Below are positions 35,708 to 63,190 of a stretch of DNA of 64,000 nucleotides, in pieces. The position numbers were made by a program, and so were the translations under genes. Source of the DNA: a virus; IMG/VR virus record IMGVR_UViG_3300042261_001117, positions 1 to 64,000 of that record; one strand, given 5' to 3'. Below the pieces are notes generated by a model, which made no database searches, was not told the DNA's origin, and worked only from the letters and a program-made list of their open reading frames with translations. Each line of letters starts with the position of its first letter. The first letter of the stretch is position 1.

Positions 35708-35737
35708 TTGACGGGAGCGGCGCGAACGGCGTAGCGT
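35708..35737 (+). promoter_or_regulatory. Promoter of the replication unit (TTGACG-18-TAGCGT)
   Basis: TTGACG at 35708-35713 and TAGCGT at 35732-35737 with an 18-bp spacer. The predicted transcription start falls at about 35744, directly at the first arm of the interlocked inverted repeats. Confidence 0.55.
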
Positions 35738-35742
35738 GTTCG

Positions 35743-35827
35743 TGCAACCGGCTCTGTTCACCAATCAAGCTCTCGCGCCCCCCGGTGGTGGCGACTCTTC
35801 GGAGCCGGTTGCACCCACCACCGGGGG
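35743..35827 (+). ncRNA. Two interlocked long inverted repeats in the replication leader
   Basis: Arm A (35743-35754, TGCAACCGGCTC) is perfectly complementary to A' (35802-35813). Arm B (35779-35791, CCCCCGGTGGTGG) is perfectly complementary to B' (35815-35827). The order A-B-A'-B' means the two hairpins cannot both form fully, since only 1 nt separates A' from B'. A further CCACGC/GCGTGG pair (35828-35833 with 35855-35860) frames the region before the ribosome-binding site. The 135 bp are noncoding. They could be a two-state RNA leader, a small RNA or a DNA element at the replication origin. Confidence 0.6.
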
Positions 35828-35872
35828 CCACGCGAGTTTTGTGCGCTGGGCGTAGCGTGGCGAGGAGTGCGC

Positions 35873-36985
35873 ATGGGCGGCACTAGCTGGGTACGCATGG
35901 ACGCAGCGTACGACGACCATCCGGACGTTCGGCGCGCTGGGCTTGAGGGTAGCGTGGTGTTTCAGGCGCTCGTGCGCAGATCGAAGCTGTTTGGCCTCGA
36001 CGGCATCGTCAGCAAGAAGTACCTCGACGTGGAGTACCTAGCGGACGTGCTGAAAGCTCCACAGGACTTCATCCAGCGCGGGCTGGTGGCGTGCTTGCGC
36101 GTTGGACTGATCCGCGACGGCGATGGCGGCGTGACGATACCAGGGTGGGATCGCTTCCAGAGTCCCGACACGTTGCGGAAGCAGCGCTACACGGAACGGC
36201 ACGGACGAGACGCAGCAGATGGTGCGCAGCAGGTTGATCCGTTCCTGTCCGTTCCAAGAACGGACGAGAACGGACGAGAACGGATTGGAACGGATTGTCC
36301 GTCTGACGTGACGGTACGTGACGAGACAGGACGTGACGAGACGCACGAGCACTGCGCGCGCGCGCGTACGCACGAGGATTCGACCCCAGCACCCGCCGCA
36401 CCGACCACGCCGCCGCCTGATCCCGCGCGGCTCGCTGCGATCCGAAACGAGATGGCCATGGCGGACGCGCAGCGAGAAGCCGAGAGCGGCGTGCGTGTGC
36501 GCCCACTTCGCGTCGATCCGGAGCGCGAGGCCCGTGACGCCGCGTGGGCGGAAGAGATGGCGCTAGCGGCCAACGTCGCGCACGACGACGGCAAGATCCT
36601 CTCGGTCTACCAGCACTGGCTCGACTCCGCGGGTTTGCCTCCGCGCTGCATGTGCCCCGACGACCTGTACATGGGCAAGACGTTCCGACTGCTGGTGCTG
36701 GAGCGGCTGAGAGACGGGCTGACCTACGACGACATGAAGCGGGCGATCACGTCGTGCCACGGAAGCAAGCGGCATCAGGAGCGCGGCGTGTCGGGGTGGG
36801 GCGCTATCCTGCGGTCGCTCTCGACGGTGCAGGAGTTCATGGCAATCGCCAACGCGAAGGCCAAGCCGCAGCAGCGATCGGGTAGGCTGTCTGACGAGGA
36901 ATTCGCGAAGCGGTACGAGGAGCGCAAGGCGGAGAAGGCGCGGAACGAGGCGCTGCTGGCACAACACGGTCGGGGTCCGAGATGA
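35873..36985 (+). CDS. Putative replication initiator (DnaD/O-like)
   Basis: The ATG at 35873 has a GAGGAG site 5 bp upstream; length is 370. Residues 1-110 (VRMDAAYDDHPDVRRAGLEG to GWDRFQSPDTLRKQR) match the winged-helix N-terminus of phage replisome organisers. Residues 225-345 form a helical domain (WLDSAGLPPRCMCPDDLYMG to GAILRSLSTVQEFMA) like DnaD-type C-termini. The linker between them is coded by repeated DNA described separately and gives an odd RDETGRDETHEH peptide. The next gene is helicase-loader-like. The pair corresponds to lambda O and P in layout. Confidence 0.65.
   Translation: MGGTSWVRMDAAYDDHPDVRRAGLEGSVVFQALVRRSKLFGLDGIVSKKYLDVEYLADVLKAPQDFIQRGLVACLRVGLIRDGDGGVTIPGWDRFQSPDTLRKQRYTERHGRDAADGAQQVDPFLSVPRTDENGRERIGTDCPSDVTVRDETGRDETHEHCARARTHEDSTPAPAAPTTPPPDPARLAAIRNEMAMADAQREAESGVRVRPLRVDPEREARDAAWAEEMALAANVAHDDGKILSVYQHWLDSAGLPPRCMCPDDLYMGKTFRLLVLERLRDGLTYDDMKRAITSCHGSKRHQERGVSGWGAILRSLSTVQEFMAIANAKAKPQQRSGRLSDEEFAKRYEERKAEKARNEALLAQHGRGPR
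36239..36342 (+). repeat. Iteron-like repeats inside the initiator gene, candidate replication origin
   Basis: CCGTTC occurs at 36239-36244 and 36249-36254, and its complement GAACGG starts at 36258, 36268, 36278 and 36288, giving four tandem 10-bp units (two GAACGGACGA, two GAACGGATTG) in helical phase. GTCCGTTC and GAACGGAC (36247-36254, 36258-36265) form a perfect palindrome around CAA. Then ACGTGACG occurs at 36306, 36316 and 36331, the last two as 12-bp ACGTGACGAGAC repeats. Lambda and related phages keep initiator-binding iterons inside the O gene, so an origin is a reasonable inference. Confidence 0.6.
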
Positions 36986-48682: not shown

Positions 48683-49164
48683 TCTCATCCTTCCTCGCGC
48701 TCCCGTCCGTCGCTCTGGCGTTGCTGCTGGCGCCGGACGCACGGGTGTCCACGTACCGCGCACTCGAGGTCGCGCTGGCGTGCGAGGCGTCGTGCCGCGG
48801 GACGCTGGTGCGCCCGGATGAGTGTGTAGCGCTCGCGTACGTCGAGACGCGGTTCAGACCGGAGCGCGTGAGCGCGAAGGGGTGCATTGGTGTCGTCCAG
48901 GTTTCGGTCTGCAACTTGCTGGTCGCAGGTCGTCGCGTGAACGCACCGGCAGCGGGGCCATGGGACGTCCACTGCATCGCTGGCGGGATCGATGCGGGTG
49001 TCCTGGCGGCAGATGCACTGAAACGCGCGCACGGGGCATTGTGGCCCCGATTTTACGGCTGTGGCACGAAGGCGGCGCGCAGGGGCGACAGAGCGTGTGT
49101 GCAGCACGAGATGCGCGTCTACCGCGCCATGAAGCGACTTGCTAGTACGGCGCCGGTGTCGTAA
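48679..49164 (+). CDS. Lytic transglycosylase (SLT-like) with signal peptide
   Basis: It starts at GTG in the previous stop; length is 161. A hydrophobic signal-like N-terminus ([17 protein letters not shown]) precedes an SLT domain with [20 protein letters not shown], where the Glu after VALAYV is the catalytic acid and the GxIGVVQV turn is the GLMQ-type motif. Extra cysteines may form disulfides, fitting export. It should cleave peptidoglycan glycan strands at lysis or entry. The next 1.0 kb holds a mobile gene. Confidence 0.7.
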
Positions 49165-49173
49165 AATGATCCC

Positions 49174-49279
49174 GCTTGTGACCGCTTGCTTCGGCAAGCA
49201 CGACAACTTGGTTCCTCACGGTGGCGGTGGGCATCTTCCCTTCGGGGCAAGCGGCACAAGCAACCACCGCCCCGTGGGG
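49174..49279 (+). ncRNA. Structured, pseudoknotted leader of the HNH gene
   Basis: Four pairings are seen: GCTTGTG 49174-49180 with CACAAGC 49255-49261; a UUCG-capped hairpin, GCTTGC/GCAAGC, at 49184-49199; a second UUCG hairpin, CTTCCC/GGG-C-AAG, at 49235-49251; and GGCGGTGG 49223-49230 with CCACCGCC 49264-49271. The last crosses the first, so a pseudoknot results. CCCC-GT-GGGG (49270-49279) closes the region. It lies between the transglycosylase stop and the HNH start and is GC-rich, unlike the gene it precedes. Family unknown. Confidence 0.5.
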
Positions 49280-49300
49280 AGCCTCGCTTACGGTGCTGAA

Positions 49301-49966
49301 ATGCCACGAAAAGCGCTATATGGTGACGATCGCCTGGGCGCTATCATAAACATGATTGCAGTAAAGTCGATTGTTAAAGACGGATGTCTGATATACACTG
49401 GTTGTAAGGATGGTAGGTACCCATACGCGGAGGTGGATGGTCGCCATATTGCATTAAGCAGACTGATATACGCGATTGTTTTTGGCAACATACCGGATGG
49501 TATGTACGTATGCCATAGATGCGACAACAAGCGCTGTGTAAACCCGGATCACCTGTTCATTGGCACACCGGCAGACAACACGCACGACATGATGAACAAA
49601 GGGCGTCAAAGATTCGATTTGTCGCGTCCCGGGCGGGCGGCGGAGGTCGGGAATATAGGGTGGAGCGGAAAAACGACAAGGGGACAACGCATCGTTGAGT
49701 TATTACGCGACGGAGTTGAGCGAACAACGCGTAATGTTGCAGAGCATCTTGGGTGCGATGTGTCTGCGGCAAAGCAAAGTTTGAAACTAGAACAAGAACA
49801 TGGGAGAATCAATGTAAGGAAAGTCGCGCTTGTTACAATAAAAACCGGCGCAGTGCCAATATCACGCACAAAAAAACGCTATCGCGAGTCCAGTAGGCGC
49901 TTGGTTAGTATGTGGTCAATACACTGCAATACGCTTGCCATCCTACGACACCGGAAGGAGACCTGA
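49301..49966 (+). CDS. HNH homing-type endonuclease, low-GC insertion
   Basis: The 221-residue protein has an HNH_3-type core, [20 protein letters not shown] (about 71-90), then [11 protein letters not shown], with two CxxC-like pairs and the HNH His residues. A helix-turn-helix follows at about 125-165 ([20 protein letters not shown]). Codons are AT-richer than in all neighbours, a sign of recent transfer. The frame is open upstream to 49139, but that part is the structured leader. No ribosome-binding site is clear. It inserts between intact genes, so it is a free-standing homing gene. Confidence 0.82.
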
Positions 49967-49967
49967 C

Positions 49968-50306
49968 GTGGAGTGCACGCGCTGCGGGAACTGTTGCAAG
50001 ACCTACCCGTGCCATCTCTGGCTTTATCAGTGGACGATGGACGGGGGTTCACCGCCGAAAGCTCCGCACGCGTGTCCGGATCTCCGCCCGATGGACGACG
50101 GCACGTGGATCTGCGGCGTGCTGGAGAACGCGCGGTTCCACGTCCAGATTGGCATGCGACCCGGCGGCTGGGACGGGCTGGTCGCTCGGCTGCTGCTGGT
50201 CGGAGACGGCTGCACCGCGACGGATCGCGTGCGGCGCGGGGAGCTTCTGCGCGAGGTTCCCGCTGACACGTTGCGGGCGATGACGATCGAAAGGGACGAG
50301 CCATGA
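49968..50306 (+). CDS. YkgJ-like Cys-cluster protein
   Basis: The GTG at 49968 has a GGAAGGAGACC site. The 112-residue protein opens with MECTRCGNCCKTYPC and has further ACPDL and ICGVL cysteines, the pattern of YkgJ/CxxCxxCC proteins, thought to bind zinc or an iron-sulfur cluster. Function unknown. It is coupled to the next gene. Confidence 0.6.
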   Translation: MECTRCGNCCKTYPCHLWLYQWTMDGGSPPKAPHACPDLRPMDDGTWICGVLENARFHVQIGMRPGGWDGLVARLLLVGDGCTATDRVRRGELLREVPADTLRAMTIERDEP

Positions 50307-59261: not shown

Positions 59262-59927
59262 ATGACCGGCAGACACGCAGGACCAGACGGGAAGAAGCGC
59301 GCGACCAGCAAGGAGAAGAAGACCTCGCCACGACTTGGCAAGCCTGGGCCGCACATCACCGTCGACCTCGCGCTCTACCGCAGGGCGTGGGAGATCTACA
59401 AACTGCGGCCGTACCCGAACGCGATCTACGAGGGCATCCCGGAGATCGGGCGCACGTACGCGAAGCAGCTTGTCGAGCGCGGCGTGCCGGAGATTGGGCT
59501 GCCGCCGCTCTCGATCAAGATGCAGGTCGCGATGTCGTTGGCCACGCAGATGGACGTGGACGAGGCCGCGCAGTCGGTGGCGGTGGGGCGCAAGGCGCTT
59601 CGCACCGCGCTGCGCGCGATGCTGCTGCGCATCGATCAGGTGGTGTCGTCGCCGACCGAGCTAGCGCGGCTGTCGCCCGCCGCGTGCATCGCGCTGATCC
59701 CGAAGTCCGTCGAGTTGAACGAGAAGCTGTCGAAGCCGACCGATGAACTGACGATGGACGCGCTGAACCAGTTCAACGACGGCGTCACGGACGTGCTGGG
59801 AGGCCTGTTCGCGTCGCTCCGCGACATCGCTGCCAAGCGTCTACCCAAGACGCCCGACGCCGCGAAGATGAACGCCACCACGCCCGAGCGGCTCGACAAG
59901 CTGGAGAAGACCGGGGCCCTCGAATGA
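59262..59927 (+). CDS. Putative terminase small subunit
   Basis: The ATG at 59262 follows GGCGGAGGGCG; length is 221. It sits directly upstream of the large terminase and overlaps it by ATGA. The basic N-terminus (1-30) and a helical body with AIYEGIPEIGRTYAKQLVER, which looks like a helix-turn-helix, fit a DNA-recognising small subunit; it would bind the packaging site. The C-terminal half is helical and may oligomerise. The family itself is not recognised. Confidence 0.65.
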   Translation: MTGRHAGPDGKKRATSKEKKTSPRLGKPGPHITVDLALYRRAWEIYKLRPYPNAIYEGIPEIGRTYAKQLVERGVPEIGLPPLSIKMQVAMSLATQMDVDEAAQSVAVGRKALRTALRAMLLRIDQVVSSPTELARLSPAACIALIPKSVELNEKLSKPTDELTMDALNQFNDGVTDVLGGLFASLRDIAAKRLPKTPDAAKMNATTPERLDKLEKTGALE

Positions 59928-61681
59928 AGTCCGCCGCACCTCCGCGCGGCGCCCGGCGACCGCAGGCGTCTCCGTCGCCGATCATCGTCCCGCGCATCAC
60001 CGAGCCGCTGCGGGCGGTCGTCCCGCCCGCGGTGCTCCGCCAATCGAAGGAACTCAACCCCGAGCAGCGTACCGCGCTCAAGACCGCGATCGTGTCGGTG
60101 CTCGACGACTGGCTGCGTCCGTACCAGCGCGAGTGGCTGGCGGACACGTCCCAGCACAAGGTGGCCAACTGGTCGCGCCAGATCGGCAAGAGCGAGGTGA
60201 TCTCGCTCGAGGCGATTCTTCAGGGCCTCGAGCCGCCGGAGACGATGGAGAAGTGCGAGATCCTCGTCAGCGCCAGCCAGTCGCAGGCGAACGAGATCAT
60301 GATGAAGGCCGTGCGCTGGAGCCACATCATCGACGAGATCGCGCGCAAGACGCTGGGCGTCTCGATCTACATGAACGGCAAGGGCCCGCAGTCCGCTCAC
60401 CCGGAGCAGATCTGGTTGTACAATTCCGTGCGCGTCATCACGCTGCCCGCGAACCCGTACTCCGCTGCGGGCTACCACGGCGACGTCTTTTGGGATGAGG
60501 TCGCCAAGACTCCCCACGATGACCTGATGTGGGACGCGCTGCACCCGATGATCTCCGGCAACAACTACCGCTTCCGCGCCACCAGCACGCCGTGGGGCGA
60601 CCAGGGGAAGTACTACGAGATCTGGCACAACCTCCCCGACTGGTCGAAGCACCAAGTCACGATCATCGACGCCGTGCGCCAGGGCGTCCCGCGCGACCTG
60701 GAGTCCATGCGACGCCAGTACGACGCGATCACCTGGGCGCAGAACTACCTGTGCCGATTCCTCTCGTCGCTGACGAGCGCGTACCCGCGCGACCTGCTGA
60801 AGGCTGCGATCGAGTTGTACTCCGACCTGCCGGACCTACCGCGCGCGCCAGCTCCGGGCGTCTGGCCGGACGACGTGTACGTGACGCTGGGCATCGACAT
60901 CGGCCGCACCAACGACCGCACCGCGCTGGTGTGGGAGTACGAGTACCCGCAGGGCTGCTACCGCTTTGAGCGCGTGCGGCAACTGGTCAAGATGCCGTTC
61001 GCGCAGCAAGAGCAGGTCATCCGCGAGATCCTGCGCGGCGGCGAAGTTCACAAGTGCCAGATCGACTCGACCGGCATCGGCATGCAGATGGCGGAGAACC
61101 TCTCGAACGAGTTCCCCGAGATCGTGCGACCGGTGACGTTCACGAACCAGCAGAAGGCGCAGATGGTGCTGGCCATGCGCGCGGACTTCGAGCGCGGCGT
61201 GCTGGCCATGGTGCCGGACAACGACCTGCTCAGCGACTTCACCTCGGTGCGGCAGGAGATCCTGGAGTCGTCGCGCACGGTGCGGTTCGGCAGCGCACGC
61301 ACCGCCAGCGGGCACGCGGACGGGCACTGGGCGGCAGGCCTCGCGCACGACGCGCAGGTCAACCGCGCGGAGTGGCAGGTCGGCGACAGCGACGTGGACG
61401 AGCCGGTCATCCGGCGTCGGCAGCAGGGCAAGGGCTTCTCGATCGAGACGCCGCTTCCGGTCGATCCGTACTACGGCGGCATGGGCGGGATGCCGAAGGG
61501 CAGCGACATCACCGGCGGCCCGAGCTACGAGGGCGACCTCGACGACCTGTCGATGCTCGACGACGAGACGCTGGAGATGAAGCTGCTGGGGCTGGACCCG
61601 GACGACTACGACGAGGACCAGGAGAAGCGCACGGCTGGCCGCCGAGCGCAATTGTTCAAAGGCGTTCGCAAAAAGAGTTGA
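59924..61681 (+). CDS. terL: Terminase large subunit (T4 gp17-like)
   Basis: The 585-residue protein has an ATPase domain with the T4-type Walker A NWSRQIGKSE (82-91), Walker B DVFWDEVAK (187-195) and a coupling ATSTPWGD motif (219-226). The nuclease domain starts with GIDIGRTNDRTALVWEY (323-339), where Asp325 is the first metal ligand, and includes KCQIDSTGIG with a second Asp. It cuts concatemers and pumps DNA into the prohead. T4-like enzymes usually package by headful, so terminal redundancy is expected. A promoter overlaps its last codons. Confidence 0.92.
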   Translation: MKSAAPPRGARRPQASPSPIIVPRITEPLRAVVPPAVLRQSKELNPEQRTALKTAIVSVLDDWLRPYQREWLADTSQHKVANWSRQIGKSEVISLEAILQGLEPPETMEKCEILVSASQSQANEIMMKAVRWSHIIDEIARKTLGVSIYMNGKGPQSAHPEQIWLYNSVRVITLPANPYSAAGYHGDVFWDEVAKTPHDDLMWDALHPMISGNNYRFRATSTPWGDQGKYYEIWHNLPDWSKHQVTIIDAVRQGVPRDLESMRRQYDAITWAQNYLCRFLSSLTSAYPRDLLKAAIELYSDLPDLPRAPAPGVWPDDVYVTLGIDIGRTNDRTALVWEYEYPQGCYRFERVRQLVKMPFAQQEQVIREILRGGEVHKCQIDSTGIGMQMAENLSNEFPEIVRPVTFTNQQKAQMVLAMRADFERGVLAMVPDNDLLSDFTSVRQEILESSRTVRFGSARTASGHADGHWAAGLAHDAQVNRAEWQVGDSDVDEPVIRRRQQGKGFSIETPLPVDPYYGGMGGMPKGSDITGGPSYEGDLDDLSMLDDETLEMKLLGLDPDDYDEDQEKRTAGRRAQLFKGVRKKS

Positions 61682-63117: not shown

Positions 63118-63190
63118 GGGCCAGTAGCTCAGTTGGGTGAGCGCCACCCTTGCAAGGTGGAGGTCGCCGGTTCAATCCCGGTCTGGTCCA
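63118..63190 (+). tRNA. tRNA-Ala (anticodon UGC)
   Basis: All four arms fold. The acceptor is GGGCCAG/CTGGTCC with one G-U pair, D arm GCTC/GAGC, anticodon stem CCACC/GGTGG with loop CTTGCAA (anticodon TGC at positions 34-36), and T arm GCCGG/CCGGT with TTCAATC. Length is 73 with discriminator A. CCA is not encoded (the next bases are CTG), so the host must add it. It would read GCA/GCN Ala codons. It lies among small genes after the terminase. Confidence 0.93.

Follow-up and report, generated by a model that had tools for sequence, protein, structure and literature searches.

Two candidate structured RNAs with crossing helices in an orphan phage, one of them preceding an HNH homing endonuclease gene

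Introduction

An HNH gene in a GC-rich phage is directly preceded by a leader in which long helices appear to cross, and the question raised by this locus is whether such a leader belongs to the nuclease or to the phage. The preliminary description proposed that it might be an RNA that moves with the nuclease or limits its expression. The DNA comes from IMG/VR virus record IMGVR_UViG_3300042261_001117; the window, that is, the whole stretch of DNA analysed here, comprises positions 1-64,000 of this 89-kb record. The phage has a GC content of ~66%. Its terminase large subunit (59924-61681) shows at most 36% identity to anything in the collections searched, and we regard the phage as an orphan. 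Searches with the upstream gene, the downstream gene, the replication gene and the terminase yielded no close phage relatives, and at the sensitivities used neither the phage nor the two RNA elements had close relatives in IMG/VR, INPHARED, PLSDB or GTDB genomes. Direct similarity searches with both elements also gave no matches.

Results

The leader before the HNH gene (copy B, Table 1) can pair into two helices in the order P1-P2-P1′-P2′, with 2 bases separating P1′ from P2′. Both UUCG hairpins mentioned in the preliminary description were recovered, as were its 7-bp helix (49174-49180/49255-49261) and 8-bp helix (49223-49230/49264-49271), which are exact and crossing. Both helices extend further: past one bulged A the 7-bp helix extends into a further 8-bp helix (49182-49189/49247-49254) to give the 15 pairs of P1, and the crossing 8-bp helix is the top of the 20-bp stem P2. 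The two G-U pairs of P2 would become mismatches if the other strand were transcribed. Nested folding, in which the crossing helix is ignored, gave a minimum free energy z-score of -3.2 to -3.9. Judged by free energy alone the leader does not stand out, since the GC-rich record has 376 windows among 2840 that are as low; relative to shuffles it is extreme, equalled by only 2 of 474 windows.

On a score built for the P1-P2-P1′-P2′ layout, copy B reached 91.5, a value that neither 4000 dinucleotide shuffles of the leader (the best scoring 59) nor 40 shuffles of the record's entire + strand attained. The presence of a structured RNA before the HNH gene, as first described, is supported. Crossing helices were also scanned for in the window, in the record and, with the same geometry, in ~5.9 Mb of sequence from phages and prophages, counting strands apart. 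A coding role for the leader was rejected: the HNH frame remains open through it, but for the 45 additional residues no match was found, and their third-position GC is low for the phage. A blastn match in Nonomuraea (E 3e-3) lies inside an ABC-transporter-permease-like frame and was taken as chance.

Table 1. Positions of the two elements, their flanking genes and associated sites in the window.
Feature	Position	Strand	Remarks
Promoter-like TTGACG-18-TAGCGT before copy A	35708-35737	+	Consensus match only; missed by stricter scan
GGCGTAGCGTG	35728-35738	+	Overlaps copy A -10; direct repeat at 35849-35859, before next Shine-Dalgarno
Copy A P1 5′ arm	35742-35754	+	13 perfect pairs
Copy A P2 5′ arm	35772-35791	+	Lower 6 bp 35772-35777, upper 13 bp 35779-35791
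Copy A UUCG hairpin CUC-UUCG-GAG	35795-35804	+	Sequence
Copy A P1 3′ arm	35802-35814	+	Pairs with 35742-35754
Copy A P2 3′ arm (35815-35827), lower stem (35831-35836), TTTT (35837-35840)	35815-35840	+	Terminator-like
Gene behind copy A	35873-36985	+	Weakly like phage replication initiation proteins (phrog_16167, E 6e-4)
Upstream phage gene	48679-49164	+	ORF and codon-usage prediction; stop directly before copy B RNA
Sigma-70-like promoter TTGCTA-17-TAAAAT before copy B	49139-49167	+	Promoter scan, consensus match only
Repeat arm CCGGTGTCGTA	49153-49163	+	Overlaps spacer and start of copy B -10
Copy B P1 5′ arm	49174-49189	+	15 bp, one bulged A
Local UUCG hairpin GCUUGC-UUCG-GCAAGC	49184-49199	+	Competes with inner end of P1
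Copy B P2 5′ arm	49210-49230	+	20 bp, two G-U pairs, one bulged U
Inner UUCG hairpin CCC-UUCG-GGG	49238-49247	+	Sequence
Copy B P1 3′ arm	49247-49261	+	Pairs with 49174-49189
Copy B P2 3′ arm	49264-49283	+	Pairs with 49210-49230
HNH_3 homing endonuclease gene	49301-49966	+	221 aa, AT-rich, single copy
Repeat arm CCGGTGTCGTA, inverted	49944-49954	-	Directly before Shine-Dalgarno of next phage gene (49968)
Downstream phage gene, Cys-rich	49968-50306	+	Sequence

A second element occurs in the record (copy A, 35742-35840). Its two crossing helices, each of 13 perfect pairs, again follow the order P1-P2-P1′-P2′; its sequence differs from that of copy B, and there is no HNH gene nearby. Counting its lower stem (CTCGCG/CGCGAG), P2 of copy A has 19 pairs and is followed by TTTT, and no base separates P1′ from P2′. 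The copies are thus similar in size, with a P1 of 13 bp in A and 15 bp in B and a P2 of 19 and 20 bp, respectively. What they have in common is an unusual architecture; since comparing copy A with copy B revealed no clear likeness in sequence, our claim of a shared character is limited to that architecture. A search with a 16-base seed of copy A returned 28 matches, all of them without the structure.

By crossing-helix score, the two copies take the top two places in the 89-kb record; in the ~5.9 Mb of phage and prophage DNA scanned they come first and third, with a single repetitive sequence (L090) between them. None of 4000 shuffles reached the score of copy A either, and in the rest of the window two crossing perfect helices sum to at most 20. 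The next candidate in the record (L029 4034, score 70) lies inside a coding frame and was rejected. Both copies occupy intergenic gaps of more than 95 nt, of which the whole record has ~15. The record's + strand has five cUUCGg hairpins, and three of them fall within the two copies, which points to an RNA on that strand. Read from the letters, then, there are two intergenic elements with the potential to pair in crossing order, and an HNH gene at only one of them. On its + strand the same phage also has short GGGCCTCGCTG-type repeats arranged in a tandem-like way (L028 1730-1895, record ~65629-65794).

The HNH gene proved AT-richer than its surroundings, as had been noted, being about half GC: GC drops from ~66% to 47-53% over 49300-49900 and is back up by ~50000, and the three codon positions of the ORF have a GC of 0.53, 0.44 and 0.50, compared with ~0.8-0.97 at the third position in most phage genes. 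This AT-richness is confined to the ORF, and the leader, correctly described as GC-rich, has the same GC as the phage. The encoded protein matches Pfam HNH_3 (PF13392) at 4.8e-11 (42.5 bits, curated cut-off 24.8), the only HNH_3 match in the record, and no RuvC or IscB domain was matched in it by Pfam. The gene looks like a freestanding homing endonuclease gene that arrived later behind copy B, a reading that fits with the freestanding HNH genes known from intergenic regions of phages, which exploit promoters already in place, such as the T4 mob genes (PMC2988022). The stretch encoding the last residues of the ORF (49936-49966) also contains the ribosome-binding site for the gene that follows, and the C-terminus of HNH may thus have been taken from the phage. 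Among other phage contigs, five HNH genes (L012, L014, L015, L016 and L018) have a similar hairpin, of the form GTTCGTATATTTGTGACTACAAAATATAAGTATATG, at their start, just ahead of the match, and those of L015, L016 and L018 are preceded by an apparent tRNA gene 3′ end and a second long hairpin.

Promoter-like sites precede both elements. The predicted +1 of copy B is 49174, the first base of P1, and that of copy A, at ~35742-35744, is within two bases of the start of P1. The word lying over each -10 recurs before the downstream Shine-Dalgarno, directly in copy A and inverted in copy B. About 0.5% of random placements were as good as the direct repeat of GGCGTAGCGTG, and 3 of 4000 were as good as the inverted repeat of CCGGTGTCGTA; both were noticed post hoc and carry modest weight. 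As the second arm of the inverted repeat lies beyond the HNH gene and before the Cys-rich gene at 49968, it suggests that copy B once preceded this gene and that the HNH gene was inserted between them; the Cys-rich gene is probably the original neighbour of copy B. Neither it nor the gene upstream of copy B has a Pfam or PHROG match. The stem of copy A is followed by TTTT but encloses a loop of 23 nt, P2 of copy B is not followed by a U-run, and a terminator scanner reported no intrinsic terminators on the + strand.

No Rfam 15 family matched either element when the whole window was searched and both elements were searched permissively. The sole match at gathering score in the window was a tRNA at 63118, and weak matches were at chance level. 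The leader is accordingly not a recognised group I, HEARO or omega RNA. HEARO and the omega RNA of IscB are also structured RNAs beside an HNH gene, but in addition to the missing Rfam match the protein here is of the 221-aa HNH_3 homing type. STAXI (RF01728) is likewise a pseudoknot with UUCG loops, located close to genes of phages or genes for DNA handling (PMC2864571); however, it consists of tandem repeats, whereas here two single elements lie 13 kb apart, and its covariance model had no match in the record.

Discussion

The preferred reading of these sequences, to which we give about an even chance, is a phage-owned, promoter-driven, structured leader or attenuator acting in cis, present in two copies, with a freestanding HNH gene inserted behind copy B. 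That the RNA is probably the phage's own follows from copy A, which has the same layout and a different sequence and stands without a nuclease nearby, and from the HNH gene looking like a later arrival. The idea of an RNA moving with the nuclease is not supported, given a copy without an HNH gene and a record with one HNH_3 match, and any limiting of expression would probably concern the phage's own gene rather than the HNH gene. It is accordingly very doubtful that the RNA belongs to the HNH gene, controlling it or travelling with it in the manner of the hairpin-regulated homing genes of T4-like phages (mobE of phage Aeh1, segB, and seg43 of Aeromonas phage 25). These do resemble our locus in having structured RNA just before a homing gene, copy B ends only 17 nt before the HNH start, and precedents exist, such as seg43, whose ribosome-binding site is preceded by a stable hairpin (PMC2988022). 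However, the T4-like regulators are simple hairpins, whereas here two helices cross and are also found without a nuclease gene. The GC of the leader is that of the phage and differs from that of the HNH gene, the leader covers no recognisable ribosome-binding site at 49301, and the regions upstream of 23 related HNH genes showed no leader of this kind.

The main rival is a C4-type antisense RNA, because a blind application of our two-helix descriptor to contigs of unrelated phages recovered a genuine C4 RNA (L063 2401-2590, RF01695, 60.8 bits). That RNA has an upstream a1/b1 target together with an isrK-like match. C4 antisense RNA undergoes RNase P processing to ~77 nt. On such a model, the P2 hairpin would be the antisense RNA and P1′ would bind an upstream target in the same transcript, and by extension other transcripts, shutting off the downstream gene. 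C4 with its a1/b1 target (RF01695, RF03163; phages P1 and P7) indeed shares with our elements the interleaved complementary segments in one transcript, a long outer stem, an inner UUCG hairpin, an antisense segment followed by the closing strand, the phage setting and the upstream promoter. An upstream complementary target is present in both copies through the P1 arm, with none of 500 shuffled targets pairing as well in either. We nevertheless consider a C4-type RNA unlikely, since a search of the record with RF01695 at up to E 10 returned nothing, the elements lack C4's second inner hairpin, and no ANT antirepressor domain was found. Moreover, the uninterrupted P1 is far longer here, and no second target is present near the downstream starts (396 of 500 and 142 of 500 shuffles were as good). 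In C4 the a′ and b′ loops bind their targets so that ribosome-binding sites become covered (PMC5320573), and nothing of that sort was found for copies A and B. It is also quite unlikely that the elements work as DNA, as an origin, recombination site or protein-binding site made of interleaved palindromes. Copy A consists of perfect Watson-Crick repeats adjoining a possible replication initiator gene, and, as might be seen with an operator, each word at a -10 has a second occurrence ahead of the next Shine-Dalgarno; against this, the G-U pairs of copy B and the UUCG loops, readable on one strand only, favour RNA.

Returning to the phage-owned leader, transcription of the elements, their switching and the later arrival of the HNH gene are inferred, as is attenuation or antisense control as the mechanism. 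An RNA of ~110 nt would be transcribed from its own promoter, present twice in the phage and each time before a gene, with its first base opening the long helix P1, which is crossed by the long P2. The small UUCG hairpins would fold first and P1 would close next; because these local hairpins overlap the inner end of P1, P1 must displace them. Whether P2 then forms may set the output of the downstream gene. In copy A, P2 would be a terminator-like stem with TTTT whose loop contains P1′, and readthrough depending on the folding order is the best fit to both copies. The HNH gene would have entered between copy B and 49968, the gene that originally followed this copy, and would now ride the copy B promoter.

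Crossing helices that each exceed one helical turn are unusual in natural RNA. We tentatively entertain the possibility that the two elements represent a new class of phage non-coding RNA, with two crossing helices of 13-20 bp, its own +1 and more than one copy, acting as a knot-based switch or a trans-acting RNA. If confirmed, they would constitute a new phage RNA class and make it possible to ask if a knot of this kind arises while the RNA is being transcribed or serves as a switch, with two diverged copies in one phage as built-in replicates. They also illustrate that a structured RNA adjoining a homing gene need not be that gene's own.
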